From positions 1-64,000 of the forward strand of contig NZ_ACJN02000004.1 of the NCBI RefSeq assembly GCF_000174435.1: a stretch of 64,000 nucleotides of DNA. Reading direction: 5' to 3'. The notes beneath the pieces were generated by a model that had not been told where the DNA came from, ran no database searches, and saw nothing but the letters and a program-made list of their open reading frames with translations. A program made the translations under genes and the position numbers. Shown one piece after another: positions 45,014 through 64,000 of this stretch. Numbering within the stretch: position 1 is the stretch's first letter; each line of letters opens with the position of its first letter. This DNA is from Desulfonatronospira thiodismutans ASO3-1. GTDB taxonomy: Bacteria > Desulfobacterota > Desulfovibrionia > Desulfovibrionales > Desulfonatronovibrionaceae.

Positions 45014-45934
45014 ATGCCCCGCATAGCCCGTTTTATCCGTAATGACCGCCAAACCGTCTACCATGTCATATCCCGTACTGCCCTGCCCGGCCTACCCATC
45101 AAGGATACTGACAAGGATTATCTGTTGGGGCTTATCAAAAGACTGAGCAGGCTTTACTTTGTTGACGTGCTTGGGTTTGCGGTCATGGGTAACCATTTCC
45201 ACCTAGTGGCCCGGATGCACCCTGAGGATGAAATTTCCAACTCAGACATCATCAAGAGATGGCAGGACTATTATGGTGACAAGGTCGAGATGCCTACTGA
45301 CCGGATGGCTGAGGTCAAGAAGAGGCTTTGCAGCCTTGGGGCCTATGTGAAGGACATCAAGCAGAACTTTACCAGGTATTACAACAAAAAGCACAGGCGG
45401 AAGGGATTTTTCTGGGGTGGCCGGTTTAAGAGTATGATTGTACAGGAAGGCAGTACTCTGGTGAACCTGCTTGCTTATGTAGACTTAAACCCTATCCGTG
45501 CCGGTATTGTTAAGAAACCGGAGAATTACCGCTGGAGTTCACTTGGTTATCATACCCAGACAGGTAATAAAGACGGTCTGTTGGATATTGATTTCGGGCT
45601 CAAGGAATGGAACGAGCTGGACCCCAAAGAGATTGTCCGCAAATACAGGCAATTCGTATATGAAACTGGAGCAGTAGACGCAGGCAAAGGCAAGACCATT
45701 GAAAAAAAGGTTGTGGAAAAAGCCAGGAAAAAAGGCTACAAGATATCCCGAGTAGAGCGCTTCAGGTACAGATGCCGGTATTTTACTGATTCTGGAGTTA
45801 TTGGCGGGAAGGACTTTGTGCAGGAGGTATTTGATCAGGTCAAACACCTGCTGGGGTCCAAGGATACCAGGAAATTTACACCGGTTGGCGGGGTGGAGGG
45901 TTTGTATTCTATGAAGCGGCTTGGTGAATCCTGA
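45014..45934 (+). CDS. REP-associated tyrosine transposase (RAYT), copy A
   Basis: 306 residues, AAGGAGG 6 nt upstream. Y1-type HUH endonuclease of the TnpA-REP/IS200-like family: the HUH motif is GNHFHLV (residues ~59-65), and the tyrosine region is NFTRYYNKKHRRKGFFWGGRFKSM, then LLAYVDLNPIRAGIVK. RAYTs bind and cleave REP-type palindromes and are domesticated or mobile single-strand transposases. Nearly identical to copy B at 50804. Directly downstream lies an array of palindromic ~46-bp repeats. Four or more broken copies occur to 63 kb. Confidence 0.92.
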   Translation: MPRIARFIRNDRQTVYHVISRTALPGLPIKDTDKDYLLGLIKRLSRLYFVDVLGFAVMGNHFHLVARMHPEDEISNSDIIKRWQDYYGDKVEMPTDRMAEVKKRLCSLGAYVKDIKQNFTRYYNKKHRRKGFFWGGRFKSMIVQEGSTLVNLLAYVDLNPIRAGIVKKPENYRWSSLGYHTQTGNKDGLLDIDFGLKEWNELDPKEIVRKYRQFVYETGAVDAGKGKTIEKKVVEKARKKGYKISRVERFRYRCRYFTDSGVIGGKDFVQEVFDQVKHLLGSKDTRKFTPVGGVEGLYSMKRLGES

Positions 45935-49900: not shown

Positions 49901-50191
49901 ATGCAGATAAAGGCCACTTACAATCGGGGCTGCCTTGAATTTTCAGTTCCCATCAGGCTTAGCCGGGATGAATTTACAGTGCTAGTGGATCTTCCGGATG
50001 ATGTAGTTTTATCCACAGAGGCCGGCTCAAAACAGGAGAAATCTGCCCCGTCTTCAGAGGAGGCGGGATCTGAGCTTCTGGCAAAGTTTCGCAGAATCCT
50101 GGGCTCGATGCACAGGCAGCGACCTTCTGCAAGTGTGGGAGAAGATAAGGATGCCTATGCAGAAGCTCTTGGGGAAAAATACGGACAATGA
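49901..50191 (+). CDS. Antitoxin of PIN-domain toxin
   Basis: 96 residues, GGAG before the ATG. It begins MQIKATYNRGCLEFSVPI, followed by LSRDEFTVLVDLPDD, a beta-rich N-terminus like AF2212/AbrB-like antitoxins. The C-terminal half is acidic and polar, as expected of a toxin-neutralising tail. Overlaps the PIN gene by 4 nt (ATGA). Confidence 0.65.
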   Translation: MQIKATYNRGCLEFSVPIRLSRDEFTVLVDLPDDVVLSTEAGSKQEKSAPSSEEAGSELLAKFRRILGSMHRQRPSASVGEDKDAYAEALGEKYGQ

Positions 50192-50832
50192 AAAACCTTG
50201 TTTTTGATGTCAATGTCATCCTCGACCTTTGGCTGGAGCGCAAATCCGAAGCTCAACTACTGCAACTGGCTGGTATTCTGGAATCGGGAACGGGTGATGG
50301 GTATAACTGTTGGATATGCAGCTCCAGCCTGCATGTACTTGAATACGTTACCCGCAGGGAACTGAAAAGAGACGGTGCTGATCCCCACACAGCCAAGCTC
50401 ACTTCAAGGCAGCTAATGGAGCAACTATTTGAGTACGTCTCTGTTTTGAGCTGTTTTGGATTCCAGCAGGATGACAATTTACTTTCGCGTACGGACCTGG
50501 AAGATGCCCAGATTGTTCGTGCAGCCTCCCTGTTAAATAGCCCGACTTCCATTGTCACCAATGAAAAGCGCTTTGATACTTCAGGGACAGAGGTTTTGGA
50601 ACTTATGCCCTCTGAGGTCCCAGGCTGGCTGCGGGAACCTGCATCCTCGTCAATCGTCTTCGTGGACCTGGCCGCTCAGCAAGATGGTATCCGTACATCC
50701 CTGGAGAGAAAGAAGAAGGGGACAGTCTCTTCTTGCGTTTTATTTCAGCTTATGCTATCCATTCTTCCAACAGCTCAACCACCAGCCTTAAAGGAGGTAT
50801 CTCATGCCCCGCATAGCCCGTTTTATCCGTAG
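50188..50832 (+). CDS. PIN-domain toxin with foreign C-terminus
   Basis: 214 residues as an open frame. The first ~150 residues are a PIN ribonuclease: FDVNVILDLWLE (first Asp), EYVTRRELKRDG, DLEDAQIVRAASLL (acidic pair) and SIVTNEKRFDTSG. After ~residue 154 the frame reads through a fragment of a DegT aminotransferase start, then ~40 residues of the RAYT leader and gene. The natural stop has therefore been lost. Probably still a toxin, neutralised by the upstream protein. Confidence 0.75.
   Translation: MKNLVFDVNVILDLWLERKSEAQLLQLAGILESGTGDGYNCWICSSSLHVLEYVTRRELKRDGADPHTAKLTSRQLMEQLFEYVSVLSCFGFQQDDNLLSRTDLEDAQIVRAASLLNSPTSIVTNEKRFDTSGTEVLELMPSEVPGWLREPASSSIVFVDLAAQQDGIRTSLERKKKGTVSSCVLFQLMLSILPTAQPPALKEVSHAPHSPFYP
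50650..50712 (+). pseudogene. 5' scrap of a DegT/WbpE-like aminotransferase
   Basis: The peptide IVFVDLAAQQDGIRTSLERK matches the conserved N-terminus of WbpE-type aminotransferases. It is cut off at ~50713 by the RAYT copy B leader. Together with the wbpD-like remnant at 49321 it implies a former UDP-2,3-diacetamido-sugar operon broken by insertions. Confidence 0.6.
50713..50803 (+). repeat. Conserved leader of RAYT copy B
   Basis: Same AAGAAGGGGACAG...CTCTTCTT hairpin and ~80-bp leader as 44933-45013, fused here to the wbpE scrap. Confidence 0.7.
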
Positions 50833-51724
50833 TGACCAAGCCACCGTCTACCATGTCATATCCCGTACTGCCCTGCCCGGCCTACCCATCAAGGATACTG
50901 ACAAGGATTATCTGCTGGGGCTTATCAAAAGACTGAGCAGGCTTTACTTTGTTGACGTGCTTGGGTTTGCGGTCATGGGTAACCATTTCCACCTGGTAGC
51001 CCGGATGCACCCTGAGGATGAAATTTCCACTTCAGACATCATCAAGAGGTGGCAGAAATATTATGGTGATGAAGCCCAGGTGCCCACAGACCGGATGGTT
51101 GAGGTCAAGAAGAGGCTTTGCAGCCTTGGTGCCTATGTGAAGGACATCAAGCAGAACTTTACCCGGTATTACAACAAAAAGCACAGGCGGCAGGGTTTTT
51201 TCTGGGGTGGCCGGTTTAAGAGTATGATTGTCCAGGAAGGCAGTACTCTTGTTAATTTGCTGGCCTATGTGGATTTAAACCCTATCCGTGCAGGTATTGT
51301 GAAGAAACCGGAGAATTACCGCTGGAGCTCACTTGGCTACCATACCCAGACCGGCAATAAAGACGGCCTGCTGGATATTGATTTCGGGCTCAAGGAATGG
51401 AACGAGCTGGACCCCAGAGAGATTGTCCGCAAATATAGACAATTTGTTTACGAAACCGGAGCAGTAGATGCCGGCAAAGGCAAGACCATTGAAAAAAAGA
51501 TTGTGGAAAAAGCCAGGAAAAAAGGCTACAAAATATCCAGGGTAGAGCGCTTCAGATACAGATGCCGGTATTTTACTGATTCCGGGGTTATCGGCGGAAA
51601 GGATTTTGTTCAGGAAGTCTTTGACCAGGTCAAGCACTTGCTGGGCTCCAAGGACGAGCGCAAATTTACTCCCGTTGGCGGTGTGGAGGGTTTGTATTCC
51701 ATGAAGAGACTGGGTGGTTCGTAG
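50804..51724 (+). CDS. REP-associated tyrosine transposase (RAYT), copy B
   Basis: 306 residues, >90% identical to copy A; HUH motif GNHFHLV and the NFTRYYNKKHRRQGFFWGGRF tyrosine region intact. Differences include SDQATVYHV against NDRQTVYHV. Identity extends ~90 bp upstream but stops within a few bases after the gene, which defines the mobile unit. Located amid toxin-antitoxin genes. Confidence 0.92.
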   Translation: MPRIARFIRSDQATVYHVISRTALPGLPIKDTDKDYLLGLIKRLSRLYFVDVLGFAVMGNHFHLVARMHPEDEISTSDIIKRWQKYYGDEAQVPTDRMVEVKKRLCSLGAYVKDIKQNFTRYYNKKHRRQGFFWGGRFKSMIVQEGSTLVNLLAYVDLNPIRAGIVKKPENYRWSSLGYHTQTGNKDGLLDIDFGLKEWNELDPREIVRKYRQFVYETGAVDAGKGKTIEKKIVEKARKKGYKISRVERFRYRCRYFTDSGVIGGKDFVQEVFDQVKHLLGSKDERKFTPVGGVEGLYSMKRLGGS

Positions 51725-51781
51725 TCTGACCCTTTCATTTTTCCCTTGCCTGTCCCGTAAAAACTAACTATATTAATTTTT

Positions 51782-51910
51782 ATGCATGTTATCCATGGAC
51801 CACACGACAAGATATTCAAGCGCGTGATGGCTGACCGGGAAAATGCCATTAGTCTGCTTAAGAACATCCTGCCGGATACTCGAGGATATGCGCTTGCCAT
51901 AGACTATTAA
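51782..51910 (+). pseudogene. Rpn-type (PD-(D/E)XK transposase-like nuclease) N-terminal fragment
   Basis: 43 residues: IHGPHDKIFKRVMADRENAI followed by SLLKNILP, the conserved start of Rpn/PDDEXK_4-family recombination-promoting nucleases, which are ~300 residues long. Everything after residue ~33 is missing. Confidence 0.7.
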
Positions 51911-51942
51911 TTTTCAAGACATTCAATATAGACCACAATCGA

Positions 51943-52191
51943 ATGCCAGAAATCACCAGGTTTTTAGGAATTATCATTTCCATGTACTTTGATGATCATG
52001 AGCCACCACATTTTCATGTACGATATAATGAATATCGCGCTGCTGTAAGTATTCAGGAACTTAACGTCATTGCAGGATATTTACCTGCAAAAGTCCGTGG
52101 ACTTGTTCAGGAATGGGCAGAAATATATCAGCAAGAACTTTTGAATATGTGGATAACCAAGGATTTTCATAAAATTAATCCTTTAGTTTAA
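51943..52191 (+). CDS. DUF4160 protein (toxin-antitoxin-like)
   Basis: 82 residues with the DUF4160 hallmark MYFDDHEPPHFHVRYNEY and a later VQEWAEIYQQELLNMW helix. DUF4160 genes almost always precede DUF2442 genes, as here (11-bp gap), and the pair behaves like a toxin-antitoxin module in gene-neighbourhood surveys. Which member is the toxin is not shown by sequence. Confidence 0.8.
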   Translation: MPEITRFLGIIISMYFDDHEPPHFHVRYNEYRAAVSIQELNVIAGYLPAKVRGLVQEWAEIYQQELLNMWITKDFHKINPLV

Positions 52192-52202
52192 GGGAGGCTT
52201 GA

Positions 52203-52472
52203 GTGAATTCAATTTATTTGGTTGAAGCTAAATATGTTGATAATTATCGGATTTTTCTAAAGTTCAACACTGGAGAATCCGGTGTTGTTGACCTTGAAGA
52301 TCTGATAATGAAGTATAAGGTTGCTGCTCCTTTGCAGGACCCCCAGAAATTCTCCGAGTTTTTCTTGGATTCATGGCCAACTTTAGCTTGGGAGTGCGGT
52401 TTTGATGTTGCACCAGAATCTTTGTATTATCGTTTGACAAGGAATGTGGCTCCTGGATTGAAGGTTGCTTAA
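52203..52472 (+). CDS. DUF2442 protein
   Basis: 89 residues, GTG start with GGGAGG upstream. LVEAKYVDNYRIFLKFNTGE and the WPTLAWECGFDVAPESLYY motif identify DUF2442. Partner of the DUF4160 gene. Likely small DNA- or protein-binding antitoxin component. Confidence 0.8.
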   Translation: MNSIYLVEAKYVDNYRIFLKFNTGESGVVDLEDLIMKYKVAAPLQDPQKFSEFFLDSWPTLAWECGFDVAPESLYYRLTRNVAPGLKVA

Positions 52473-52497
52473 GCCTGCTGAATATCTTTGCTCTGCA

Positions 52498-52686
52498 GGT
52501 CTCTGAGACCAGCAAGTGATTGTTTTTATTGAGTTTAACCCTCTAAAATAGCCCATTTTCACCCCCCTAGTGTAATTCGCTGCGCTTGTGACTGCGTCAA
52601 TTACACAGGGTAAACTTACAGACAACTTTTGCCTCCGGCACCACCCGGATATACTCGTAACCATTCAAAATTACTATCAATTAGCT
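52498..52686. repeat. 3' tail of a second HUH-transposase family, copy 1
   Basis: Starts with the palindrome GGTCTCTGAGACC and continues AGCAAGTGATTGTTTTTATTG. Two further copies lie at 54836-55090 and 57163-57320. It contains ATTCGCTGCGCTTGTGACTG and CTCCGGCACCACCCGGAT hairpin-like pieces and borders the transposase fragment at 52687 on the other strand. Confidence 0.7.
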
Positions 52687-52905
52687 TTAAAAATCTCTCG
52701 GATCAAAAATCTCCCATTCAATTAGATTGCTTTTTGTCCGATCACCATAGGGCAATTGCTCATCATGCACTGCAGGGTGCTCCTGGGTAGCCTTGGATGT
52801 ATAACCCATCTTTAAACGGAGCTGTTCAACATAGCTTTTGCTGCCCACGGCCAGTTCCGTAGTCCAGATATCATCTCTGGGCAGGTTGCCTTTACGGATT
52901 TGGCC
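52687..52905 (-). pseudogene. C-terminal fragment of a second-family REP-type transposase
   Basis: Minus-strand frame ending at a stop at 52687: DDIWTTELAVGSKSYVEQLR, then MGYTSKATQEHPAVHDEQLP and NLIEWEIFDPRDF. The W-T-T-E-L-A-V-G-S-K-x-Y-V-E pattern is the C-terminal part of RAYT-like transposases distinct from the 45014/50804 family. No N-terminal HUH half remains. The last ~25 codons recur at 55040-55098. Confidence 0.65.
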
Positions 52906-52993
52906 AGGTGTTTGGCCAGGTCTCTGAGACCAGCAACTGCTATATCCCGTTTAGCGCTTCAGGTGCAGATGCCGGTATTTCACCCGGTTAAAC

Positions 52994-53060
52994 ACCCAGC
53001 ACTCACTTTAATATTTTCGGCTCCATCATAAACAAACAAATGGAAAAGTGAGCGCTGGGT
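52994..53060. repeat. Long-arm palindromic element (copy 5 of 5)
   Basis: ACCCAGCACTCACTTT left arm, AAAAGTGAGCGCTGGGT right arm (one mismatch). It sits inside a CCCGGTTAAAC...CCGGG palindrome that itself sits inside the RAYT remnant. Confidence 0.8.
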
Positions 53061-53182
53061 CACGCGGAGCCGGGTTTAGCCGGGCAAACCGATTCCGGGG
53101 TTATCGGCGGCCCAGTGAAATCCTGCGTAGCAGGGCCGTGTTACGGCATTTCACAAGGCAAGCAAGGACTTTGTTCAGGAGG

Positions 53183-53283
53183 CCCCAGTAAAATGAAAAG
53201 ACCCCAATGAAATGAGAAGACCCCGGTTAAATGGGAAGAAACTCAACAGGGCAAAAATTTCATGGGGCAGGAATTTTACGGGG
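53183..53283. repeat. Triple-nested palindrome
   Basis: Outer arms CCCCAGTAAAAT (53183-53194) and AATTTTACGGGG (53272-53283). Middle arms CCCCAATGAAAT (53202-53213) and ATTTCATGGGG (53257-53267). Inner arms CCCCGGTTAAAT (53221-53232) and AACTCAACAGGG (53240-53251, degraded). Each left arm is followed by a 7-base GARAAGA-like spacer, after which the next element begins. Confidence 0.85.
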
Positions 53284-53415
53284 TAAATATTCGACCAGGT
53301 CAAGCACCTGCTTGGCTCCAAGGATACAAGGAAATTTACGTCGATTGGAGGGGTTGAAGGGGTTTACTCCTTGAAGAGGTTGGGATAAAATTAATTTTTT
53401 ATTCTGGAATTTTCC

Positions 53416-53721
53416 ATGTCATACACCACTACATCAATAAATGGAATCAGTATCCGACTGACCAATGAACGATGGGGGCATATTGTAGAGGAACATGCTG
53501 AGTTAGGTGAAATGATGGATTTTGTTTTACTAACTGTCAGTAATCCTGACATCGTATTGGCGGGAAATAGTGGAGAGTTCCTGGCGGTACGTGAATTTGA
53601 TACAAAGAAACATCTTGTGGTTCCTTATCGAGAAATTAACAAGGATGGGTTTATAATAACCGCATTCTTAACGAGAAGAATACAATCATTGCAAAGGAGA
53701 AAGCAGATATGGCCCAGATAG
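53416..53721 (+). CDS. Putative toxin of DUF2283-paired module
   Basis: 101 residues. Core GISIRLTNERWGHIVEEHAE, VSNPDIVLAGNSGEFLAVRE and DGFIITAFLTRRIQS resemble the small PBECR-like proteins encoded just upstream of DUF2283 genes. Overlaps the next gene by 13 bp. Family function not established; a toxin role is inferred from pairing. Confidence 0.65.
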   Translation: MSYTTTSINGISIRLTNERWGHIVEEHAELGEMMDFVLLTVSNPDIVLAGNSGEFLAVREFDTKKHLVVPYREINKDGFIITAFLTRRIQSLQRRKQIWPR

Positions 53722-53942
53722 CAATCAATGATTTTTTAAAAGTCATGCCTGCCGTCAGGATGGCACCTAAAAAAACATTTTGGACTACCTACGACGTTGA
53801 TGCGGATGTGTTATATATAAATTTTAAAAAGCCAAGTTATGCAGACGACAGTGAAATGACAGATGACGATGTAATTATTCGGTACGAACATGGCGAGGTT
53901 ATTGGAATGACAATTTTAAATGCAAGTCAGCGTAAGATTTAA
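53709..53942 (+). CDS. DUF2283 protein
   Basis: 77 residues. YDVDADVLYINFKKPSYADD then DDVIIRYEHGEVIGMTILNA is diagnostic of DUF2283. Start overlaps the preceding gene. Probable antitoxin partner. Confidence 0.8.
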   Translation: MAQIAINDFLKVMPAVRMAPKKTFWTTYDVDADVLYINFKKPSYADDSEMTDDDVIIRYEHGEVIGMTILNASQRKI

Positions 53943-54106
53943 GTCAAATTGAGCATATGCAAACCCAGAGAGTGGAAGAACCGGTGGAAGAACCGGGACA
54001 GGTAAGAAGGGGATTGACGCGAAGATCGCGGAAAATCAGCGAGCGAAAGTGGGGACAGGTTCTTTAAGTTGCATTTTCATTAAGATATTTTATCAAACGA
54101 TATATT

Positions 54107-54211
54107 ATGCCCGCATCAGTTCAGCCCAAACACTATACCGCTATATTGAAAAACGCCATTGAGGATGTACCTGACACCCTTACATATAACCATGAGAAGA
54201 GAATTGTGTAG
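54107..54211 (+). CDS. Possible short leader ORF before brnT
   Basis: 34 residues (begins MPASVQPKHYTAILKNAIED) ending 2 bp before the BrnT GTG. TTGCAT and TATATT-like boxes lie upstream. No family recognised; could be a leader peptide or chance. Confidence 0.3.
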   Translation: MPASVQPKHYTAILKNAIEDVPDTLTYNHEKRIV

Positions 54212-54213
54212 CT

Positions 54214-54484
54214 GTGGATTTCACTTGGGATGATACAAAAGACAGGTCAAACTTTAAAAAAACACGGAGTTTCATTCGTCGAAGCCACTGAGGTTTTTGG
54301 TGATGTTTTCTCATCCTGCGTATCGGATCCCGATCATTCGGTTGAGGAAGACCGCTACCTGCTTTTCGGTACAACATCAAAAGGAAGAAGTTTGGTAGTA
54401 TCGTTTACTGAGTGTACAGGAACAATTAGAATTATATCAGCCAGACAAATGACTCGCAAGGAGCGAACAGCATATGAATCATAA
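54214..54484 (+). pseudogene. brnT: BrnT toxin with frameshift
   Basis: From the GTG at 54214 the frame reads VDFTWDDTKDRSNFKK, the BrnT start, then loses frame in a run of seven A (54255-54261). Removing one A restores HGVSFVEATEVFGDVFSSC, DRYLLFGTTSKGRSLVVSFT and RIISARQMTRKE, which is a complete BrnT RelE-fold RNase. Either the toxin is dead or it is made at low level by slippage in the A-run. An ATG at 54230 opens the second frame alone. Confidence 0.75.
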
Positions 54485-54686
54485 CGATACCTTACGCCCC
54501 GAATACCCCTCGGAACTTATCAAGTCAGGAGAACGTGGTAAATTTGCCAAAAAATATCGTGAAGAGGGGACAAATTTAGTGTATATTGAACCTGATCTGT
54601 TTAAATTTTTTCCTGATTCAGAATCAGTTAACCGAGCTTTACGAAAATACTTTAATGAGCATCACTCTTCAAACACTTCTTACTAA
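54474..54686 (+). CDS. brnA: BrnA-type antitoxin
   Basis: 70 residues overlapping the end of brnT. YPSELIKSGERGKFAKKYRE at the start and FKFFPDSESVNRALRKYFNE at the end fit BrnA-like ribbon-helix-helix antitoxins, which bind and repress the operon. Intact although the toxin is frameshifted. Confidence 0.65.
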   Translation: MNHNDTLRPEYPSELIKSGERGKFAKKYREEGTNLVYIEPDLFKFFPDSESVNRALRKYFNEHHSSNTSY

Positions 54687-54739
54687 GCGTTTGGTTTTTC
54701 TGGCATGGACTGCGTAATCCACGGGAAAGACGGTTTGGT

Positions 54740-55100
54740 GACATTATGTTGCCAGAAAAGAGAAGAAATAGGGGGCATTATGTTGCGAGTTTACCCGGTT
54801 GCTGGGCCAGGTCTCGCTGGGCCAGGTCTGTGAGACCAGCAAGTGAGAGTTTTCTGAGACCAGCAAGTGATTGTTTTTATTGAGTTTAACCCTCTAAAAT
54901 AGCCCATTTTCACCCCCCTAGTGTAATTCGCTGCGCTTGTGACTGCGTCAATTACCCAGGGTAAACTTACAGACAACTTTTGCCTCCGGCGTCACCCGGA
55001 TCTATACGTAACCATTCAAGATCATTATCAATTAACATTAAAAATCTCTCGGATCAAAAATCTCCCATTCAAGTAGATTGCTTTCTTTCCAATCACCATA
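54740..55100. repeat. Dispersed repeats and second-family tail, copy 2
   Basis: ACATTATGTTGCCAG (54741) and GGGGGCATTATGTTGCGAG (54771) are followed by GCCAGGTCTGTGAGACCAGC and the ~255-bp tail that matches 52498-52740. The end (55040-55098) encodes the last codons of the second-family transposase on the minus strand. Confidence 0.7.
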
Positions 55101-55103
55101 GGG

Positions 55104-55575
55104 TGGAAAAAGCCAGGAAAAAAGGCTACAAGATTTCCAGGGTAGAACGCTTCAGATGCCGGTATTTCACCCGGTTAAACAGACCGAAGGTCTACGGCTC
55201 TGCAGTGTTTAACCGGGTAAACAGATTCCGGGGTTATCGGAGGGAAGGATTTTGTTCAGGAGGCCCCAGTAAAATGGAAAGACCCAGTTGAATGTGAAGA
55301 AATTCAACCGGGCCGGAATTTTACGGGGTAAATATTCGACCAGGTCAAATACCTGCTGGGCTCCAAGGATTCACCCAGTTAAACAGACCTCCGGTCTACG
55401 GCTTCGCCGTCCAGTTAAATGGAAGAAGATTTAACCGGATAAATGTTTAACTGGGCATGCGCAAATTTACCCAGTTAAACAGGCCGTAAGGCCTCCTGCA
55501 TAGCAGGGTTTAACCGGGTGAACCCCGGTTGGTGGTGTGGATGGTTTGTATTCCATGAAGAGACTGGGCCAGACT
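55104..55575 (+). pseudogene. RAYT remnant broken by four palindrome insertions (P2)
   Basis: RAYT C-terminal codons run VEKARKKGYKISRVERFRCR (55104-55163), then an insertion (~55165-55220). DSGVIGG-like text and DFVQE follow, then an insertion (55262-55332). FDQVKYLLGSKD follows, then an insertion (~55369-55465). RKFT follows, then an insertion (~55470-55530), and finally VGGVDGLYSMKRLG. Two insertion points coincide with those of P1, but the inserts differ in content. Confidence 0.8.
55264..55328. repeat. Double-nested palindrome
   Basis: Outer arms CCCCAGTAAAAT (55264-55275) and AATTTTACGGGG (55317-55328). Inner arms CCCAGTTGAAT (55283-55293) and ATTCAACCGGG (55302-55312). The outer element equals the outer element at 53183-53283; the inner differs. 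Confidence 0.85.
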
Positions 55576-55652
55576 TGAATTTACTGCTCCCAGCATGTTC
55601 ACAGACAGGATATGCCCTGATCTAATTTTGGCGGAGTGGGCCGGTGTCGCCA

Positions 55653-55814
55653 ATGAAGGGCCTGACAGGCCTCATCTATGAGCTGCAGGCCTGCTATGAA
55701 CATTACCATGAGAACACCGGAGCCTTGCGGATGCTCTGGCATACGTTTACCGGCAAAACGCCCTGGACTGATCTTGACTACGAGGTGGGAAAGGGTTGCA
55801 AATCCGGGGATTAG
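55653..55814 (+). CDS. Possible gene fragment, unknown
   Basis: 53 residues with LIYELQACYEHYHENTGALR and MLWHTFTGKTPWTDLDYEVG, which has natural-looking composition but no recognised family. No ribosome site is evident. It may be the end of a decayed gene. Confidence 0.3.
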   Translation: MKGLTGLIYELQACYEHYHENTGALRMLWHTFTGKTPWTDLDYEVGKGCKSGD

Positions 55815-55881
55815 CCATTAAGTTTTTTATTGCACAACATGCAAAGAAAGAATCATGGGATAAACAGCAGAGGGATGATTT

Positions 55882-56202
55882 TTGAATACGCTTGTCAAAA
55901 TGCAAGAAGCTTTGGAAAAGAGAAATATTATATGGCGCAGACATGTTCTATCTCGAATGCTGGAGCGCAATATCTCCAGGGATGATGTGTTTAACGCTAT
56001 ACAGGATGGAGAAATTATCGAGTCTTATCCGGAGGACAAGCCATATCCAAGTTATCTTATATCCGGATTTTCAGGGAATAAGCGGATACATGTGGTTGCT
56101 TCGTGGGACGATGGAGCACAAGCAGTCTATATCATAACAGCATATATCCCTGATGAGGATCATTTTCAAGAAAATGGTATAGCAAGAAAAGCGAGGCAGT
56201 AA
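55882..56202 (+). CDS. DUF4258 toxin-like protein
   Basis: 106 residues, TTG start after GAGGGATGA. RHVLSRMLERNISRDDVFNA, EIIESYPEDKPYPSYLIS and IHVVASWDDGAQAVYIITAY match DUF4258, a RelE/MqsR-like fold. Abuts the YgiT-type zinc-finger gene (0 bp gap). The pair resembles an MqsR/MqsA-style toxin-antitoxin module. Confidence 0.8.
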   Translation: MNTLVKMQEALEKRNIIWRRHVLSRMLERNISRDDVFNAIQDGEIIESYPEDKPYPSYLISGFSGNKRIHVVASWDDGAQAVYIITAYIPDEDHFQENGIARKARQ

Positions 56203-56436
56203 ATGTTTTTTACCAAAGGATGCCCCTTGTGTGGCGGAAAGCAAAATCCAGGTACGACTACCTTCACAGTAGACAAAGGCAGCGTATTGGTGGTGGTGAG
56301 AAACGTACCGGCCATGGTGTGCGACCAGTGCGGAGAGGCGTGGATCATGGATTCAGTCGCTGAAGATCTGGAAAGAATTGTCTCAGAAGCCAAGTCTAAA
56401 CGCAGCCAAATAGAAGTTATTGACATGGCTGCCTAA
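56203..56436 (+). CDS. YgiT-type zinc-finger antitoxin
   Basis: 77 residues. Two CxxC pairs (CPLCGG near residue 8 and CDQCGE near 44) form the MqsA/YgiT N-terminal zinc finger, followed by a helix (ERIVSEAKSKRSQIEVI). The HTH half of full MqsA is absent, as is usual for this subfamily. Antitoxin for the DUF4258 protein. Confidence 0.85.
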   Translation: MFFTKGCPLCGGKQNPGTTTFTVDKGSVLVVVRNVPAMVCDQCGEAWIMDSVAEDLERIVSEAKSKRSQIEVIDMAA

Positions 56437-56488
56437 ACCTGTCGTCTCGAAAAATTAACACCGAATACTGACAACATTAAGAAGAACT

Positions 56489-56880
56489 GGGACATTATGT
56501 TGCCAGTAACCCGCCTTACACTCCTGCTTTTAGAGCCAGTGGGGACAGACCACGTTTCCTGCGCAAAACGCCGCCTGGAGGAGCAAAACGAAAACAGGCG
56601 GCAATTCCAGCCTTTAGTGATGAACGACAATTAAGAGCTAAGGGACATTATGTTGCGAGTTTAGTTATGTTGCCAGTATCCCGCGATAACCCGCTATACC
56701 CCGCCTGTCTTTAGTATTTTTTTTAACGTACCCTGCATACCCCGCCCTGTTTGAATGCCCTAAAGGAAGTTTCGACTCAACAGAATGGATCCACCCCGCC
56801 TCACCCGGTATAGACATATACCCCGCATACCCCGCCCTTGAGGTAGTTCCCAGGAGTCAGGAGTCAGTGGTCAGGCTCCA
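56489..56880. repeat. Dispersed GGGACATTATGTTGC repeats
   Basis: Copies at 56490 and 56642, the second followed by TTTAGTTATGTTGCCAGTAT and ~100 bp also found at 49205-49320. CGCATACCCCGCCC words recur to 56845. No gene seen. Confidence 0.65.
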
Positions 56881-56986
56881 GTACTCAACGCTGATCCCTG
56901 ATTTTTTCTTGACCCCGCATGAATTCTTTCCATTCATTTTTCTTCTTTCCAAAACTACAACCTCTTGAGTATTGGAAAAAATACCT

Positions 56987-57120
56987 TCCCCGTTTCATGC
57001 TTGGTATGTTTTGGGCAATTAATCCCCCAGATTCCCCATTTCTTGCATTGCCTAATGTGGGCAATTCAGCCCTTTCGTTACCCATTTTATGCTTGGTATT
57101 TTTTGGGCAATTAAGCATCG
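56987..57120. repeat. Palindromic ~46-bp array, second locus
   Basis: Three units of CCCATTTCATGC...TGGGCAATT matching the array at 45993-46371/49104-49191. Confidence 0.75.
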
Positions 57121-57139
57121 CAACATAAGGTTAGGGCCA

Positions 57140-57325
57140 GGTCTCTGAGTGAGAGGCCAGGTCTCTGAGACCAGCAAGAGCTTGTTTTTATTAAGTTTAA
57201 CCTTCTAAAATAGCCCATTTTCACCCCTTACAGACAACTTTTGCCTCCGGCACCACCCGGATCTATACGTAACTGTACAAGATTATTATCAATTATCATT
57301 AAAAATCTCTCGGATCAAAAACGTA
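57140..57325. repeat. Second-family transposase tail, copy 3
   Basis: GGCCAGGTCTCTGAGACCAG then ~150 bp matching 52498-52700, with ~60 bp around TTCGCTGCGCTTGTGACT deleted. Ends at CTCTCGGATCAAAAA. Confidence 0.7.
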
Positions 57326-57471
57326 ACATAAGGAATAGGCGAAGAACATGAAAAGCATGAAGTTTTGAGCGTCCAAAAGTGTTTGGCGTATCGATATGAG
57401 GGCTTTGAGGCATGTCGAAAACGTACTTTGCAGGTCTTGACAAGAATGTTATAACCACATATAGTTACAAA

Positions 57472-57720
57472 ATGACGAAGAGAGAGAAACTCCTGTCTCG
57501 AGCTAAGAACAATCCAAAAGATCTCACATTTGATGAGTTTCAGACGCTTTTACGTCATGCTGGCTGGACATTTGATCATCAGAAGGGGAGTCACCAGATA
57601 TGGTATTCTCCAAATCGCCGCCGTCTTCCTGTTCAGCCAGGCAAAAATGGCAAAGCAAAGGGCTACCAGGTTGAACAATTTTTAGTTGCCCTTATGGAGG
57701 AGACTGATGGAGAAACATGA
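57472..57720 (+). CDS. hicA: HicA-type toxin
   Basis: 82 residues from the ATG at 57472; the frame from 57412 adds 20 non-conserved residues. FDEFQTLLRHAGWTFDHQKG, SHQIWYSPNRRRLPVQPGKN and the GYQVEQFL tail give the HicA double-stranded-RNA-binding-like fold with the catalytic His in GSH. mRNA interferase. Overlaps hicB by 14 nt. Confidence 0.87.
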   Translation: MTKREKLLSRAKNNPKDLTFDEFQTLLRHAGWTFDHQKGSHQIWYSPNRRRLPVQPGKNGKAKGYQVEQFLVALMEETDGET

Positions 57721-58057
57721 TCGATTTGATGGATTCAGCGTGAGCGTTTTTCTGGATGATGACGGCGAATACATTGCCCATTTTCTTGAAATGCCAAATA
57801 TCTCTGCCTTTGCTGAAACCCCGGAACTGGCTCTTCATGAACTTGAGGTTGCATGGGAAGGCGTGAAAGAAAGCTATCAAAAAAACGGGGAACCTATTCC
57901 TGTTGCTCCTGCACGAAAGGAGTACACTGGGCGTTTTAATATTCGCATTGACAGAAGGCTGCACCGGGCTCTGGCCATTGAGGCCGCCAAAGCAGGCATT
58001 TCATTAAATGCCATTGTAGCTCAGAAGCTTGCCAGGGAGACACCACAACACGGGTGA
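57707..58057 (+). CDS. hicB: HicB-type antitoxin
   Basis: 116 residues, GGAGGAG before the ATG at 57707. Residues 1-60 are the partial RNase-H-like HicB fold (VFLDDDGEYIAHFLEMPNIS). Residues ~78-112 are a ribbon-helix-helix DNA-binding domain (GRFNIRIDRRLHRALAIEAA). Neutralises HicA and probably represses the operon. Confidence 0.87.
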   Translation: MEKHDRFDGFSVSVFLDDDGEYIAHFLEMPNISAFAETPELALHELEVAWEGVKESYQKNGEPIPVAPARKEYTGRFNIRIDRRLHRALAIEAAKAGISLNAIVAQKLARETPQHG

Positions 58058-58101
58058 ATTCCTCCTGCTGAGCCATCAACGTTTTCTGAAAATGGAAGAA
58101 T

Positions 58102-58225
58102 AGGGACATTATGTTGCCAGTTTAGTTATGTTGCCAGGGCATCCAGCGGATGTAAATGAGCTAAGGGACATTATGTTGCGAGTTTACCCGGTTGCTGGGC
58201 CAGGTCTCTGAGACCAGCAAGTCAG
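58102..58225. repeat. Dispersed repeats
   Basis: GGGACATTATGTTGCCAG (58103), GGGACATTATGTTGCGAG (58165) and CCAGGTCTCTGAGACCAGC (58199) in a row, the same order as at 54771-54850. Confidence 0.7.
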
Positions 58226-58555
58226 GCTTAAGCCGTAGACATGTCTTTGATTATTTGAGAGAAAAGGGTATAGGCGTTAATGTTCATTATATTCCGGTAC
58301 ACACTCAGCCCTACTACAGGGGCATGGGGCATGGGGCATGGGGCAAAAACAAGAGAACGAGACACAGAGGGTAGAACGCCAACCGCCAAACGCCAAGCGC
58401 TATACGACAGGACAGGCATGTTTCCAGAGGCGGAAAAATATTACCAGGAGGCCCTTACCCTGCCTCTTTTTCCTGCTATGAGTGAGGCAGACCAGGATAG
58501 AGTGGTAGAAGCCATAAAAAGAATCCTGCCCACGGAACACTCGGAAGGACACTGA
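58220..58555 (+). pseudogene. PseC-like aminotransferase 3' remnant
   Basis: SLSRRHVFDYLREKGIGVNV and HYIPVHTQPYYR (58220-58320), then after a ~95-bp insert EAEKYYQEALTLPLFPAMSE and DQDRVVEAIKRIL (58425-58530). These are the C-terminal end of UDP-4-amino-sugar (pseudaminic acid pathway) transaminases. The insert (GGGGCATGGGGCATGGGGC followed by AACGCCAACCGCCAAACGCC-type repeats) breaks the frame. The N-terminal two thirds are gone. Confidence 0.78.
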
Positions 58556-58654
58556 ACTTAAAGATTTCTTTTCAGTGCTATTCCGTGTATTCCGTGGGCT
58601 AAACTCTTTTTCTGGATCAGTCCCCGGAACCCGAGTTCAAAAGGAGAAATTGAT

Positions 58655-58870
58655 ATGTCTCAAACAATGACTTTTGGAGGCCTACTGGAAGAGGTGGAGA
58701 AACTGCCACTTGAAGAACAGGATATGTTCAAGGAAATTCTCTCCAAGAGACTCATGGAACGCCGACGTAATCAGCTTTTTGATGAAATACAGAAAGCACG
58801 AGCGGAATATAGTGCGGGAGAATGCTATCCCGTAAGTGTAAACGACCTGATGGACGAAATTGTCAAATGA
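58655..58870 (+). CDS. Antitoxin of RelE-type module
   Basis: 71 residues, AAGGAG before the ATG. GLLEEVEKLPLEEQDMFKEI, then KRLMERRRNQLFDEIQKARA: the helical pattern of small antitoxins paired with RelE-like toxins. Overlaps the downstream toxin by 4 nt. Confidence 0.7.
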   Translation: MSQTMTFGGLLEEVEKLPLEEQDMFKEILSKRLMERRRNQLFDEIQKARAEYSAGECYPVSVNDLMDEIVK

Positions 58871-59144
58871 AGCGACTTCTGATTCGTTCTCCATCCTTTG
58901 TTCGTGCCGCCAAACGGTTTATCAAAAAGCGTCCTGAATGTGGCGATGACATACGAAAGGCACTGACTTTGAGAACGATGTTTTCCATCCAAGTCTGAAA
59001 GCACATAAGCTTCAAGGCAGGTTATCAGGATCATGGACATCTTGTGTCGGATATGATCTCAGGATTATCTTTCATCTCGGTCGGTATGAAGGGCAAGAGG
59101 CCATTTTTCTAGAAACAATGGGTACGCATGATGAGGTGTATTAA
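58867..59144 (+). pseudogene. RelE/YafQ-like toxin, frameshifted
   Basis: Starts MKRLLIRSPSFVRAAKRFIK, then the frame breaks near 58970. The second frame continues DVFHPSLKAHKLQGRLSGSW, SCVGYDLRIIFHLGRYEG and IFLETMGTHDEVY, the full C-terminus of a RelE-superfamily mRNA interferase. A small indel has inactivated the toxin while the antitoxin stays intact. Confidence 0.78.
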
Positions 59145-59346
59145 AGCTTGCGGACCCTGGACTTCGCACTTCGGATTCCAGACATATAGCTTCCGTGCTT
59201 TTCCGTGCCTTCCGCCTGCCCCGTGTAACCGGGGTCCCCTCTGGGGTGTTACAATTAAAATAATTTTTCACTTAAATTTGTAAACCTTCATGCATTTTAT
59301 GTTTTATTAATACTGAAAAAATAGATTACGCCATGGAGTTGTTTGT
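59145..59346. other. Intergenic, no gene seen
   Basis: Contains CCCCGTGTAACCGGGG (59219-59234) and CCCCTCTGGGG-like inverted repeats, then an AT-rich stretch before the next gene, which probably holds its promoter. Confidence 0.4.
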
Positions 59347-59583
59347 ATGATATCCTTTACTGCAAAATATGTAAAAATCGGCTCTGGCTATATGGGCCAA
59401 ATCGTTGAATGGCCTGAAGTAGTTACCGAAGGCAAGGACATTGAAGAATGTAGAGTTATGCTTCGGGATGCCCTTAATGAGATGATGCTGGCTTACCAGC
59501 AGTTAGGCAAGGAATTCCCTCCGGGAAATGCTTTGATTGAACAGTTGCCTGTGGAGATCAAAAATGTCGGTCAAACGGCGTGA
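59347..59583 (+). CDS. hicB: HicB-like antitoxin
   Basis: 78 residues. FTAKYVKIGSGYMGQIVEWP, GKDIEECRVMLRDALNEMML: the single-domain HicB fold without an HTH tail. Unlike the module at 57472, the antitoxin precedes the toxin here. Overlaps hicA by 20 nt. Confidence 0.8.
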   Translation: MISFTAKYVKIGSGYMGQIVEWPEVVTEGKDIEECRVMLRDALNEMMLAYQQLGKEFPPGNALIEQLPVEIKNVGQTA

Positions 59584-59752
59584 TTTGGTCAAATATTTTG
59601 AACAAAACGGTTTTAAACTTCTCAGGGAAGGCGCAAATCACTCCATTTATACAAATGGAACCAAGGCGATCCCGGTAAAAAGACATCGGCAACTGGACAG
59701 AATTACAGCCAACGAACTGTGTAAACAGGCAGGTTTAGACCCTGTATTTTAA
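59564..59752 (+). CDS. hicA: HicA-like toxin
   Basis: 62 residues from the ATG at 59564, with GGAG upstream inside hicB. RRDLVKYFEQNGFKLLREGA, NHSIYTNG and IPVKRHRQLDRITANELCKQ are typical HicA with the catalytic His. Complete. Confidence 0.87.
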   Translation: MSVKRRDLVKYFEQNGFKLLREGANHSIYTNGTKAIPVKRHRQLDRITANELCKQAGLDPVF

Positions 59753-59776
59753 TTTCATGCCCTTCATTGGAAAAAC

Positions 59777-59973
59777 AGGGACATTATGTTGCGAGTTTAC
59801 CCGGTTGAACATTTATCCGGTTAAATCTTCTTCCATTCAACTGGACGGCTGTGCCGTAGACCTTCGGTCTGTTCAACTGGATGAAGTTATGTTGCCAGTA
59901 TCCCGTGATATCCCTCCTTACCTCGCGTAGCCCGTTTTATCTGTAGTGACCAAACCACCGTTTACCCGATAAA
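59777..59973. repeat. Dispersed repeats, palindrome and RAYT 5' scrap
   Basis: GGGACATTATGTTGCGAG (59778), then an inverted copy of the CCAGTTGAA/CCGGTTAAAT nested palindrome carrying GTAGACCTTCGGTCTG (59800-59885). TATGTTGCCAGTATCCCG follows, then CGTAGCCCGTTTTATCTGTA and GTGACCAAACCACCGT, the first codons of a RAYT gene (59933-59967). Confidence 0.7.
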
Positions 59974-60215
59974 TAAGAACGGAAAAACTTCCTGTCAGAG
60001 TTCGAGAGGTCTTGTTTCAGTTGACGCAGGAAATCGAGTTTAGTGGTTTTGTCCGTGGAGACTGGCCAAATTATTCAAAACTTTCAGACAACGAACATCA
60101 TTGCTATTTGAAGAAAGGTAAACCAACTTATGTGGCTGTCTGGAGGGAAGTCCAGGGAAAAGTCAAGGTGGTGGAGATAGCTTATGTCGGAACCCATGAA
60201 AAAGCCCCATACTGA
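59974..60215 (+). pseudogene. HigB/RelE-type toxin with lost N-terminus
   Basis: EKLPVRVREVLFQLTQEIEF and GDWPNYSKLSDNEHHCYLKK, then PTYVAVWREVQGKVKVVEIA and THEKAPY: the C-terminal three quarters of a RelE-fold toxin. The expected first ~25 residues are replaced by a RAYT 5' scrap and palindrome text. Initiation at the TTG at 60012 would give a shortened protein, probably inactive. The antitoxin gene overlaps its end by 32 bp. Confidence 0.7.
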
Positions 60216-60540
60216 TGAAGAAATAATCACGCTGAATTTGCGTGTTCGACGCAGTATTGCAGGCAAGATTAAACAATATGCTCAGTTTTTGGAAGACGAG
60301 GACAAGCCTGCCTATTCTGTAGCTGATGTTTTTCCTGAATATATGGACAAAAACCCCCAGATAGCTCTTCGGGCCTACAGAACCAGAGAGAGTTTGACGC
60401 AGAAGGAGCTGTCGCTTAAGACCGGAATTCCCCAGCATCAGACAAGTGAGATGGAAAACGGCAAAAGAGGGATTGGTAAAGAACGAGCCCGCAAGCTTGC
60501 CCAGGCCCTGAGTGTTTCTGATTATCGGTATTTCCTGTAA
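60184..60540 (+). CDS. XRE-family antitoxin/regulator
   Basis: 118 residues, GGTGGAG before the ATG. The C-terminal helix-turn-helix is TRESLTQKELSLKTGIPQHQ then SEMENGKRGIGKERARKLAQ. N-terminal 60 residues are charged and helical with VRRSIAGKIKQYAQFLEDED. Overlaps the truncated toxin. Likely DNA-binding antitoxin that represses its own operon. Confidence 0.83.
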   Translation: MSEPMKKPHTDEEIITLNLRVRRSIAGKIKQYAQFLEDEDKPAYSVADVFPEYMDKNPQIALRAYRTRESLTQKELSLKTGIPQHQTSEMENGKRGIGKERARKLAQALSVSDYRYFL

Positions 60541-60562
60541 CCTTGACTAGGACAAACAGCTT

Positions 60563-61644
60563 ATGAAAAAAACCCTCATCACCGGCATAACAGTCCAGGA
60601 CTGAGCATACCTGGCAGAACTGCTCCTGCACAAGAACTACACAGTCCACGGCATCAAGCGCAGGGCCTCAAGCTTCAACACTGACCGTGTGGACCACCTG
60701 TACCAGGATCCACACACTGAAAACAGAAACTTCATCCTGCACTACGGCGACCTGACAGACGCTACAAATCTGATCCGGATAATCCAGCAGGTGCAGCCGG
60801 ACGAGATCTACAATCTGGCAGCCCAGAGCCATGTGCAGGCTTCCTTTGAGACTGCCGAATAAACCGCCAATGCCGATGCCCTAGGTACGCTTAGAATACT
60901 GGAAGCAATCAGACTTTTGGGCCTGACAGACAAGACCAGGTTCTACCAGGCCTCAACATCAGAGCTGTTCGGCAAGGCCGTGGAGACTCCCCAGACCGAG
61001 AAAACCCCTTTTTATCCAAGAAGCCCTTACGCAGCAGCCAAGCTCTATGCCTACTGGATTACGGTTAATTACCGGGAAGCTTATGGCATGTATGCCTGCA
61101 ACGGGATTCTCTTTAACCACGAATCACCCATTAGAGGCGAGACCTTTGTAACCCGCAAGATTACCCGGGCAGCCGCCAGAATAGCCCTGGGCCTTCAGGG
61201 TACGCTTTATCTGGGTAACCTGGATGCCAAAAGAGACTGGGGCCATGCCCGGGACTTCGTGCGCATGCAGTGGCTGATGCTGCAGCAGGATGAGCCGGAG
61301 GATTTTGTAATAGCTACGGGAGAGCAGCACAGCGTGCGGGACTTCTGCGAACTGGCCTTTGCAGAGCTTGGGATTAAGCTCAACTGGGATGGGCAGGGCG
61401 TAAATGAAATGGGAAAGGATGAGCAGGGAAGAGTGCGGGTTCATGTCGATCCCCGCTATTTCAGACCTACAGAAGTGCAGTCCCTGCTTGGAGGCCCGGC
61501 CAAAGTCAGGGAAAAGCTTGGCTGGACCCCGGAGATATCCTTTCAGGACATGGTAAAAGAGATGTTCTTCATGACCTAAGCCTTGCCAGGCGGGATAAGC
61601 TGTGCAATGACCACGGGTATGACGTCTACGACTCACATGATTAG
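60563..61644 (+). pseudogene. gmd: GDP-mannose 4,6-dehydratase pseudogene
   Basis: Full-length Gmd reading from 60563: MKKTLITGITVQD, TGA (60602-60604), [20 protein letters not shown], later a TAA at 60860-60862 where Tyr of E-Y-T-A-N-A-D is expected. The intact NAD-fold and S/Y/K region follow ([33 protein letters not shown]). A frameshift near 61570 then precedes [20 protein letters not shown]. The Gly-rich loop is also altered (GITVQD for GITGQD). Three independent lesions in an otherwise well-kept gene mean recent loss of GDP-deoxyhexose synthesis here. Confidence 0.9.
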
Positions 61645-61711
61645 AAACAGGCTTTACTTCAGACCCAGCGTTCAATAAGATAGCCTTATCTGGATTTAGG
61701 AGGCTACTTCA

Positions 61712-61969
61712 ATGAGCATACGTCTGGAACTCGACAACGATCTGCAGGATGCCCTGCGCATACCCCCGGAAGAACAGGAAAGCAGGCTTCGCCGGGAACT
61801 ATCCTTACGGCTTTATGAAAAAGGGCTTCTTTCTCTGGGAAAAGCCCGCCACATGGCTGGCATGGATAAGTGGGAATTTCTTTTGCTCCTGTCCCGGGAA
61901 GGCATACCCAGGCAGTACGATACAAAAGAGCTGGATCGAGACCTGTCTACCTTGGATTCTCTTCCATGA
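61712..61969 (+). CDS. UPF0175-family antitoxin
   Basis: 85 residues, AGGAGG before the ATG. SRLRRELSLRLYEKGLLSLG then KARHMAGMDKWEFLLLLSRE is the UPF0175 signature, a HTH-like DNA-binding fold. The next gene, a DUF3368 PIN protein, overlaps by 4 nt (ATGA), the usual partner. Confidence 0.85.
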   Translation: MSIRLELDNDLQDALRIPPEEQESRLRRELSLRLYEKGLLSLGKARHMAGMDKWEFLLLLSREGIPRQYDTKELDRDLSTLDSLP

Positions 61970-62454
61970 AGGCCATATCCAATTCGTCTGTTCTCATAGG
62001 GCTTAGCTCCATCGGCAGGTTAAGCATTTTGCACAACAGGTTTCCGCAAGGAATAATTGTTCCTTGGGCAGTCTGGGAGGAAGTGGTTGAAACCGGCCAT
62101 GGTTTGCCTGGTGCTCAAGAGGTCGCCCGTGCAGAGTGGATTACCACCCAGCAGGTACAAAATAAGGTTTTCAGTCTTTCACTTCAGGTATCTCTTGACC
62201 GCGGAGAAGCTGAAGTTATTGCTCTGAATCAGGAAATCAACGCTGATATTTTACTGCTGGATGAAAAAAGTGCTCGAAGTATCGCTGTAAGACTGCAGTA
62301 CACAGTTTTAGGCACAGTTGGTGTTTTGATCTGGGCCAAAAGAAACTCCCTGTTATCAAATCTATCCCAGGAACTGGATTTATTGCAACAAAAAGGTGGC
62401 TTTCGTCTCAGCAAGGATGTCTATGAACTTGCAATCCAAAAGGCAGGTGAGTAG
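61966..62454 (+). CDS. DUF3368 PIN-domain toxin
   Basis: 162 residues from the ATG at 61966. NSSVLIGLSSIGRLSILHNR, VPWAVWEEVVETG, LDRGEAEVIALNQEI and ILLLDEKSARSIA supply the PIN acidic residues; the DUF3368 tail KRNSLLSNLSQELDLLQQKG follows. Predicted VapC-type RNase, intact. Confidence 0.87.
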   Translation: MKAISNSSVLIGLSSIGRLSILHNRFPQGIIVPWAVWEEVVETGHGLPGAQEVARAEWITTQQVQNKVFSLSLQVSLDRGEAEVIALNQEINADILLLDEKSARSIAVRLQYTVLGTVGVLIWAKRNSLLSNLSQELDLLQQKGGFRLSKDVYELAIQKAGE

Positions 62455-62492
62455 TGATCAAAGATAGCCCGATGCTTATTGCTGGCATATCC

Positions 62493-63033
62493 GGTGCCAT
62501 TATGGGGAATCATTTCCACTTAGTGGCCCGGATGCACCCTGATGATGAGATTTCCAATTCAGATGTCATCAAGAGGTGGCAGGACTATTACGGTGACAAG
62601 GTCGAGATACCTGCTGACCGGATGGCTGAGGTCAAGAAGAGGCTTTGCAGCCTTGGTGCCTATGCGAAGGACATCAAGCAGAACTTTACCCGGTTAAATG
62701 CCGCGTTAAATGCCGCGTAGCGGCCCCCGCACACCATCCTCCCTACCCCTTCATAGTACCTCATCATATATTTCCTCTCTCTATTTTTTTTGCTAAACCC
62801 ATTGTCTGTGCGGGGATTTAACCGGGTGAACCCGGTTAAATGCTGCGGTAGCAGCACCCCGCACATCACCCTCCTTACACTTCATGTAATTCCTCATCAT
62901 ATGTAACCTCCTTCTATTTTTAGCTATCTCATTTTTGGTGCGGGGGATTTAACCGGGTGAACCAGGTATTACAACAAAAAGCACAGACGTCAGGGATTCT
63001 TCTGGGGTGGGCGTTTTAAAAGCATGATTGTAC
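62493..63033 (+). pseudogene. RAYT remnant split by a double palindrome (P3)
   Basis: Middle part of RAYT: AIMGNHFHLVARMHPDDEIS through AYAKDIKQNFTR (62493-62692), an insertion 62690-62965, then YYNKKHRRQGFFWGGRFKSM continuing to 63033. HUH motif and tyrosine region are both present but separated. Ends of the original gene are missing on both sides. Confidence 0.82.
62690..62965. repeat. Two tandem palindromic elements inside RAYT remnant
   Basis: First: CCCGGTTAAATGCCGCG... to ...GTGCGGGGATTTAACCGGGT (62688-62826). Second: CCCGGTTAAATGCTGCGG to ...GTGCGGGGGATTTAACCGGG (62828-62957). The ~100-bp interiors are related (CACATCACCCTCCTTAC/CACACCATCCTCCCTAC; TATTTTT). Target site in intact RAYT is TTTACCCGGTATTAC. 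Confidence 0.82.
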
Positions 63034-63244
63034 GGGCATATCTAGGCAATATTTTGGCTGAAAACCTGTATGCCCATGCTCTCCCCATATTTTTCTCTGG
63101 AAGCCATTTCAGCTTCCAAACCCCCCTCTGGCGTAAGGGGTTATTTCCTCCCAGGTTAGGGGGCAATCCAAAAATTGGTTTAATCATCAGACTTTTCCAC
63201 CCGTTTTTGAGAGCCATAAAGATAGGCCAATTTGAGAGCCAAAA
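63034..63244. other. Non-coding end region of IS4-type element
   Basis: No gene seen. The junction with the RAYT remnant at ~63033 probably marks the end of the transposon whose transposase is encoded on the minus strand. Confidence 0.4.
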
Positions 63245-63997: not shown

Positions 63998-64000
63998 AAA

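Follow-up and report, generated by a model that had tools for sequence, protein, structure and literature searches.

The REP/REPIN-RAYT (TnpA_REP) systems of E. coli and Pseudomonas combine imperfect dispersed palindromes of 20-40 nt, carrying a GTAG/GTRG tetranucleotide at the foot, with Y1/HUH transposases in the same genome. Cutting of REPs as single-stranded DNA has been established in vitro, with GTAG proposed as the guide, and the dissemination of REP-like elements has been described as poorly understood (PMC8266576). REPs have also been reported within palindromes in A. variabilis (GTAG-15), T. roseum (GTAG-23), and H. neapolitanus (CGTC-1); the host palindromes differ in sequence from the REPs, and no empty target was found for A. 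variabilis and H. neapolitanus (PMC3733652). In subclass 2.4, REPs are inserted in tnpA_REP genes, in frame between the HuH and Y motifs (PMC6006769). The IS200/IS605 elements (IS608, ISDra2) use a Y1 transposase that recognizes hairpins, and insert without duplication and in fixed orientation to a short 5' target. Mitochondrial mobile hairpins, such as the yeast GC clusters (PMC4478555) and the sponge RHE (PMC2800124), are also a few tens of bases long and merge or cluster; in the available parts of these two papers, the mechanism is given as unknown and loop-specific nesting is not described.

The window, which is the whole stretch of 64,000 nucleotides analysed here, belongs to the genome of the soda-lake bacterium Desulfonatronospira thiodismutans ASO3-1 (4.1 Mb, five contigs), whose nearest named relatives include Desulfonatronospira MAGs. 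Its hairpins resemble REPs, being dispersed palindromes of 20-40 nt that can fold as hairpins, with a tetranucleotide foot and Y1/HUH transposases in the genome. However, the tag is mostly CAGG, CAAG, or TAAA (5' of the hairpin these read CCTG, CTTG, and TTTA), and not GTAG/GTRG or CGTC. The junctions are A^C or AAGA^A, to which the cut-site rule published for REPs (C^T with GTAG) does not apply. The hairpins do not flank RAYT genes, and they nest in loops of their own family. As in the cases of PMC3733652, a REP-like hairpin lies inside another palindrome; in the present genomes guest and host belong to one family, there are empty sites, and the nesting repeats. As in subclass 2.4, hairpins lie inside Y1 transposase genes, but here they are out of frame, at many sites, and in YVDLNP-type RAYT pseudogenes. 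The YVDLNP motif and the length of the present RAYT resemble subclass 2.3, for which no REP-like structures have been reported (PMC6006769). Compared with the IS200/IS605 elements, the present ones are short (about 35 nt) and non-autonomous and consist of one hairpin; outside loops their target is loose. The original prediction that no described family has this habit was too strong, since tnpA_REP genes (PMC6006769) and palindromes (PMC3733652) are both published sites of REP insertion. Recursive insertion of a family into its own loops in bacteria was not found in the literature searched, with subscription work (including that on cyanobacterial small dispersed repeats) largely outside it.

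Nested hairpins in decayed RAYT genes

Many RAYT copies in the genome are broken, and nine are intact and nearly identical. The genome offers a natural experiment, because the intact copies serve as empty sites. The RAYT genes and remnants of the window are the following.

50804..51724, + strand: intact RAYT gene (306 aa, NHFH and YVDLNP), with the uninterrupted target CAGGAAGTCTTTGACC; Pfam Y1_Tnp above cut-off
45014..45934, + strand: second intact RAYT gene, uninterrupted at CAGGAGGTATTTGATC; Pfam Y1_Tnp above cut-off
52953..53384, + strand: decayed RAYT 3' end with three palindrome inserts; blastn to the intact gene (RAYT nt 743-773, 772-794, and 817-911)
55103..55569, + strand: second decayed RAYT 3' end, with a second doll (nested palindrome) and more palindromes; blastn to the intact gene
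62502..63031, + strand: RAYT fragment interrupted at CTTTA^C, where tandem REP-like palindromes occupy about 270 bp; blastn

In the profile search, the two intact genes scored 31.8 (50804) and 32.2 (45014) bits against PF01797 (cut-off 23 bits). The RAYT at 50804-51724 scored 58.4 bits against NCBIfam NF047646 (REP_Tyr_transpos), under the cut-off of 80, and is read as a diverged relative. Seven intact copies (L076-L084, flanks of intact copies) share a sharp left end, GAAGAAGGGGACAGTCTCTTCTTGCG, after unrelated DNA; this boundary suggests that the RAYT gene itself moves as a unit. The left boundary contains GAAGA, as do the hairpin loops. Elsewhere (G000:C2:25600-30900), four RAYT copies are arranged head-to-tail at a spacing of about 1.3 kb, each with about 71% protein identity to the window RAYT. 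Other genes in the window include a DhiT/DhiA-like toxin-antitoxin pair adjoining the RAYT gene (51943-52472; the DhiT model is slightly below cut-off), a BrnT-like toxin gene between two decayed RAYT remnants (54230-54484), and a GDP-mannose 4,6-dehydratase-like gene, apparently broken upstream of a 220-aa ORF (60560-61579).

Sequence inspection confirmed that 53183-53283 consists of three palindromes, one within another, at the exact coordinates predicted. They read in the order CCCCAGTAAAAT-GAAAAGA / CCCCAATGAAAT-GAGAAGA / CCCCGGTTAAAT-GGGAAGA-AACTCAACAGGG CAAA / AATTTCATGGGG CAGG / AATTTTACGGGG, which ends at 53283. The proposed consensus fits two of the three stems, since the innermost right arm AACTCAACAGGG is decayed. 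The predicted second copy of the outer element, with one different inner hairpin, is present at 55264-55328. The parts of both dolls are listed below.

53183..53194, + strand: outer hairpin, left arm CCCCAGTAAAAT; site empty in L006/L007
53195..53201, + strand: outer loop GAAAAGA, insertion point immediately 3'; empty and filled copies compared
53202..53213, + strand: middle element, left arm CCCCAATGAAAT; L002 has outer and middle without the inner element
53214..53220, + strand: middle loop GAGAAGA, with the second insertion point on its 3' side; copies compared
53221..53255, + strand: innermost element, 35 nt, CCCCGGTTAAAT-GGGAAGA-AACTCAACAGGG plus tag CAAA; missing in L002 at the exact boundary
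53256..53271, + strand: middle right arm AATTTCATGGGG plus tag CAGG; sequence and L002 comparison
53272..53287, + strand: outer right arm AATTTTACGGGG plus tag TAAA; sequence and uninterrupted copies
55264..55332, + strand: second doll, outer hairpin with the single inner element CCCAGTTGAATGTGAAGAAATTCAACCGGGCCGG and the outer tag TAAA

As single-stranded DNA, 55264-55328 folds better than all of 200 shuffles (z -3.1). The fold of 53183-53283 is moderately better than shuffles (z -2.1, with 6/200 equally good), and therefore the case for the dolls is built on copy comparison rather than on energy. An Rfam search of 50000-64000 matched zero families.

The original prediction missed that the outer hairpin, too, is an insertion, lying in a decayed RAYT (Y1/HUH transposase) gene. 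The insert points in 52953..53384 lie after TTTCA, after ATCGGCGG, and, for 53183-53287, after CAGGAGG. At the last site, the uninterrupted CAGGAGG/TATTTGA has become CAGGAGG/CCCCAGTAAAATGGGAAGAAATTTTACGGGGTAAA/TATTTGA, and the outer hairpin replaces no base. Copies at successive stages survive at this site: the uninterrupted gene, the hairpin alone (L006, L007, G006/G010), the hairpin with one insert (55264, L008, L002, L003), and the hairpin with two inserts (53183). L002 carries the middle element but lacks the innermost one, and so shows the innermost insertion site in its empty state. L003 differs in detail, with another short palindrome replacing the inner right arm. Since copies with zero, one, and two inserts survive in the genome and its relatives, the dolls grew by stepwise insertion. 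The comparison of empty and filled sites that had been proposed as a check thus bears out insertion into the loop of a pre-existing hairpin. Slippage or tandem duplication, which had been named as the refuting outcome, is ruled out by the different nested stems (AGTAAAAT, AATGAAAT, GGTTAAAT, and AGTTGAAT).

Several other readings of these sequences were rejected. An integron attC site (GTTTAAC ends) was abandoned when the repeat turned out to be the RAYT 3' end. By inspection, translational readthrough does not apply, as the outer insert, 35 nt long, puts the sequence out of frame and its tag TAAA brings a stop. Hairpins are also not the cause of the longer in-frame RAYT ORFs in G010 and G045, where the extra sequence is tandem AGGAGTCAGGGGACAG repeats. 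These ORFs (L321, L323, L324) carry the AGGAGTCAGGGGACAG-type repeats in frame (linker near residue 223) and are longer but unbroken.

The element and its insertion sites

The element is a hairpin of 30-31 nt with a 4-nt 3' tag, 34-35 nt in total, consisting of a CCCC stem, a GNRAAGA loop, and a GGGG stem. Its ends are precise, starting at CCC(C) and finishing with GGG(G) and the tag. Among 41 flank clusters, the tag was CAGG in 22, CAAG in 7, TAAA in 6, and TGAA in 2, which gives a strong CARG/TAAA consensus. Position -1 is A in 27/41 clusters; the 5' flank is otherwise weak outside loops. Strict pattern matching recovered 88 copies in 15/61 genomes (14 in G000), compared with 1 for the reversed-pattern control; the broader motif CCCRGTTRAAY, also a pattern search, gave 158 in G000 versus 6. 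The stem covaries (score 0.241 versus 0.081 when shuffled), and 0/500 shuffles reach the observed score. Within 1.5 kb of the nine intact RAYT copies no such hairpin was found, apart from an unrelated doll at a distance of 1.4 kb from L077. As the intact copies are not flanked by hairpins, there is no REPtron layout. The element is best called REP-like and not REP, because it lacks both the GTAG tag and the flanking arrangement.

After shared copies were collapsed, nine independent nested events and one ambiguous case were identified, spread over two families and several genera. Most of the relatives are fragmented MAGs, and independence was judged by flanks and stem types. The ambiguous case (L329, G006), in which the outer right arm is unmatched, was left out of the nine. 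The events, as outer and inner stem, are as follows.

GTAAAAT with AGTTGAAT
GTAAAAT with AATGAAAT
GTAAAAT with GGTTGAAT
AATGAAAT with GGTTAAAT
AGTTGAAT with AGTTGAAT, at C5:111499; G006 carries copies with one hairpin in that repeat context
ATTGAAAT with AATGAAAT, in G018, from another family
GGTGAAAT with GATGAAAT, in G010
AGTGTACT with GATGAAAT, in G002
AGTTAAAT with AGTTGAAT, in G004, itself within a third palindrome (three-level doll)

In all nine events, the AAGA of the outer loop, or its equivalent, is immediately followed by the start of the inner hairpin, which has the same orientation as the outer one. Reverse-orientation loop inserts were sought in the 61 genomes, and no genuine case was found. 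No target duplication was seen wherever an empty site exists. Insertion without duplication and in fixed orientation to the target is therefore as in IS200/IS605-like elements, but one conserved tetra- or pentanucleotide 5' of every insertion was not found. Targets besides loops include the right arms (TTYA^, a second self-target), the RAYT coding sequence, and intergenic sites. In longer cruciform palindromes with two sub-hairpins (window 55374-55455, L108, L110, L115), a short hairpin is inserted at GCCGT^, between the sub-hairpin and the closing stem; L106 and L107 are uninterrupted copies.

The same ladder was found in a second Y1 gene family. The intact 266-aa genes L388 and L389 read GGCATA/TAACC without interruption. 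In G010, L317 reads GGCATA/CCCCGGTGAAATGGGAAGAGATTTCACTGGGTAAA/TAACC, with a single hairpin in the Y1 gene, and L318 has the L317-type hairpin plus a 54-bp hairpin at GGGAAGA^GATTTC, with no base duplicated or lost. The G010 gene remnant had no Pfam or NCBIfam match and was identified through its intact homologues L388/L389, whose regions match PF01797. In two further 266-aa-type Y1 genes (L380 and L381, G000:C2:698979 and 756739), the codons of the HUH motif are interrupted by one shared composite palindrome, which holds a small tagged hairpin; the remainder of each gene looks open.

In the two Y1 gene families, all 7 inserts of determinable orientation follow the direction of the coding strand, for which a two-sided sign test gives about 0.016. 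The coding strand is the strand mobilised by IS200/IS605 elements, and this agreement is suggestive. The count of Y1-gene insertions is biased in that RAYT served as the query.

Mechanism and competing explanations

We consider it fairly probable that these hairpins are non-autonomous REP-like elements whose insertion, by a Y1/HUH transposase, is strand-specific, with their own loop as a landing site. The successive insertions are observed in the copies: the outer hairpin inserts in the RAYT gene, the middle element in the outer loop, immediately after GAAAAGA, and the inner element in the middle loop, immediately after GAGAAGA. The element would be cut and joined as single-stranded DNA by the RAYT or a genomic relative, with AAGA displayed in a hairpin loop as a preferred acceptor. 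Because the element loop carries RAAGA, each insertion would renew the landing site, and inward growth would again become possible. Single-strand Y1/HUH transposition fits, because the ends are precise, there is no target duplication, and the orientation relative to the target is single. The fixed site and orientation and the absence of duplication agree with the predicted HUH/RAYT-like mechanism; the RAYT at 45014, which had been proposed for a cleavage test, is at most a candidate agent. Against that gene are the unflanked intact copies, the lack of a GTAG tag, and the presence of other Y1 transposases; the candidate enzymes are the 306-aa RAYT, the 266-aa family, and Y1 proteins of 317-322 aa. 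The tag, the unflanked RAYT copies, and the weak 5' flank outside loops also count against the main explanation, as does a modest genome overlap (hairpin in 15/61, window-type RAYT in 17/61, and both in 7 genomes). Most of the 61 genomes are fragmented MAGs.

The insertion might be directed purely by the sequence RAAGA, with the loop structure irrelevant, which is compatible with transposase-mediated insertion. AAAGA in the RAYT coding sequence (nt 560) is indeed used by a related longer palindrome. We regard this as rather unlikely: an unbiased search of the 61 genomes for hairpins directly after AAGA, ignoring the upstream sequence, gave 14 matches, of which 3 were chance and the remaining 11/11 lay in loops, yet loops are a tiny share of AAGA sites (about 43,000 per genome, extrapolated from the window). 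The loop preference is partly confounded by insert tolerance in dispensable DNA, which accounts for part of the bias but hardly all of it. Template switching at hairpins during replication, in which a stalled strand switches to a dispersed hairpin, copies it, and comes back, would need no dedicated enzyme. Hairpins stall polymerases, donor copies are abundant, and most donor flanks end in A, a 1-nt homology with AAGA. This explanation seems improbable, as different stems share the same two precise ends (a CCCC start and a 4-nt tag at the finish), a single exact position in the loop and a single orientation are used, and the 3' junction (tag, then AATTT or GATTTC) has no shared homology.

The nesting might also have happened just once or twice, with recombination or gene conversion spreading the ready-made composite palindromes. 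Some dolls were clearly copied with the RAYT pseudogene (nestings common to G000, G005, G010, and G018), and L380 and L381 have one insert in common, so that such spread holds for the dispersal of some copies. As the full explanation it is very improbable and is refuted by the nine different outer/inner combinations that remain after collapsing, most of them in unrelated flanks and including the second gene family and the three-level doll of G004. Short palindromic repeats can be MITEs, and DDE genes are present, such as the one near 63245. Double-strand transposition by a DDE transposase is nevertheless the least credible of these explanations, since the empty/filled pairs show no target-site duplication, the orientation and position are fixed, and the tag is one-sided.

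Under the preferred explanation of single-strand insertion by a Y1/HUH transposase, the target may be defined by structure (AAGA in a loop) and be self-renewing. The hairpins may further prefer Y1 transposon genes, which would be transiently single-stranded, and act as parasites of transposons; we offer this extension only tentatively. REP-like elements are common, and here the intact genes and empty hairpins give the exact ends, tag, target, and strand, which opens the single-strand model to in vitro tests with defined oligonucleotides. These are natural before-and-after copies of a mini-element of a type for which movement has been difficult to show. If true, loop-directed self-renewing targeting would be a new rule of target choice in the Y1/HUH group.
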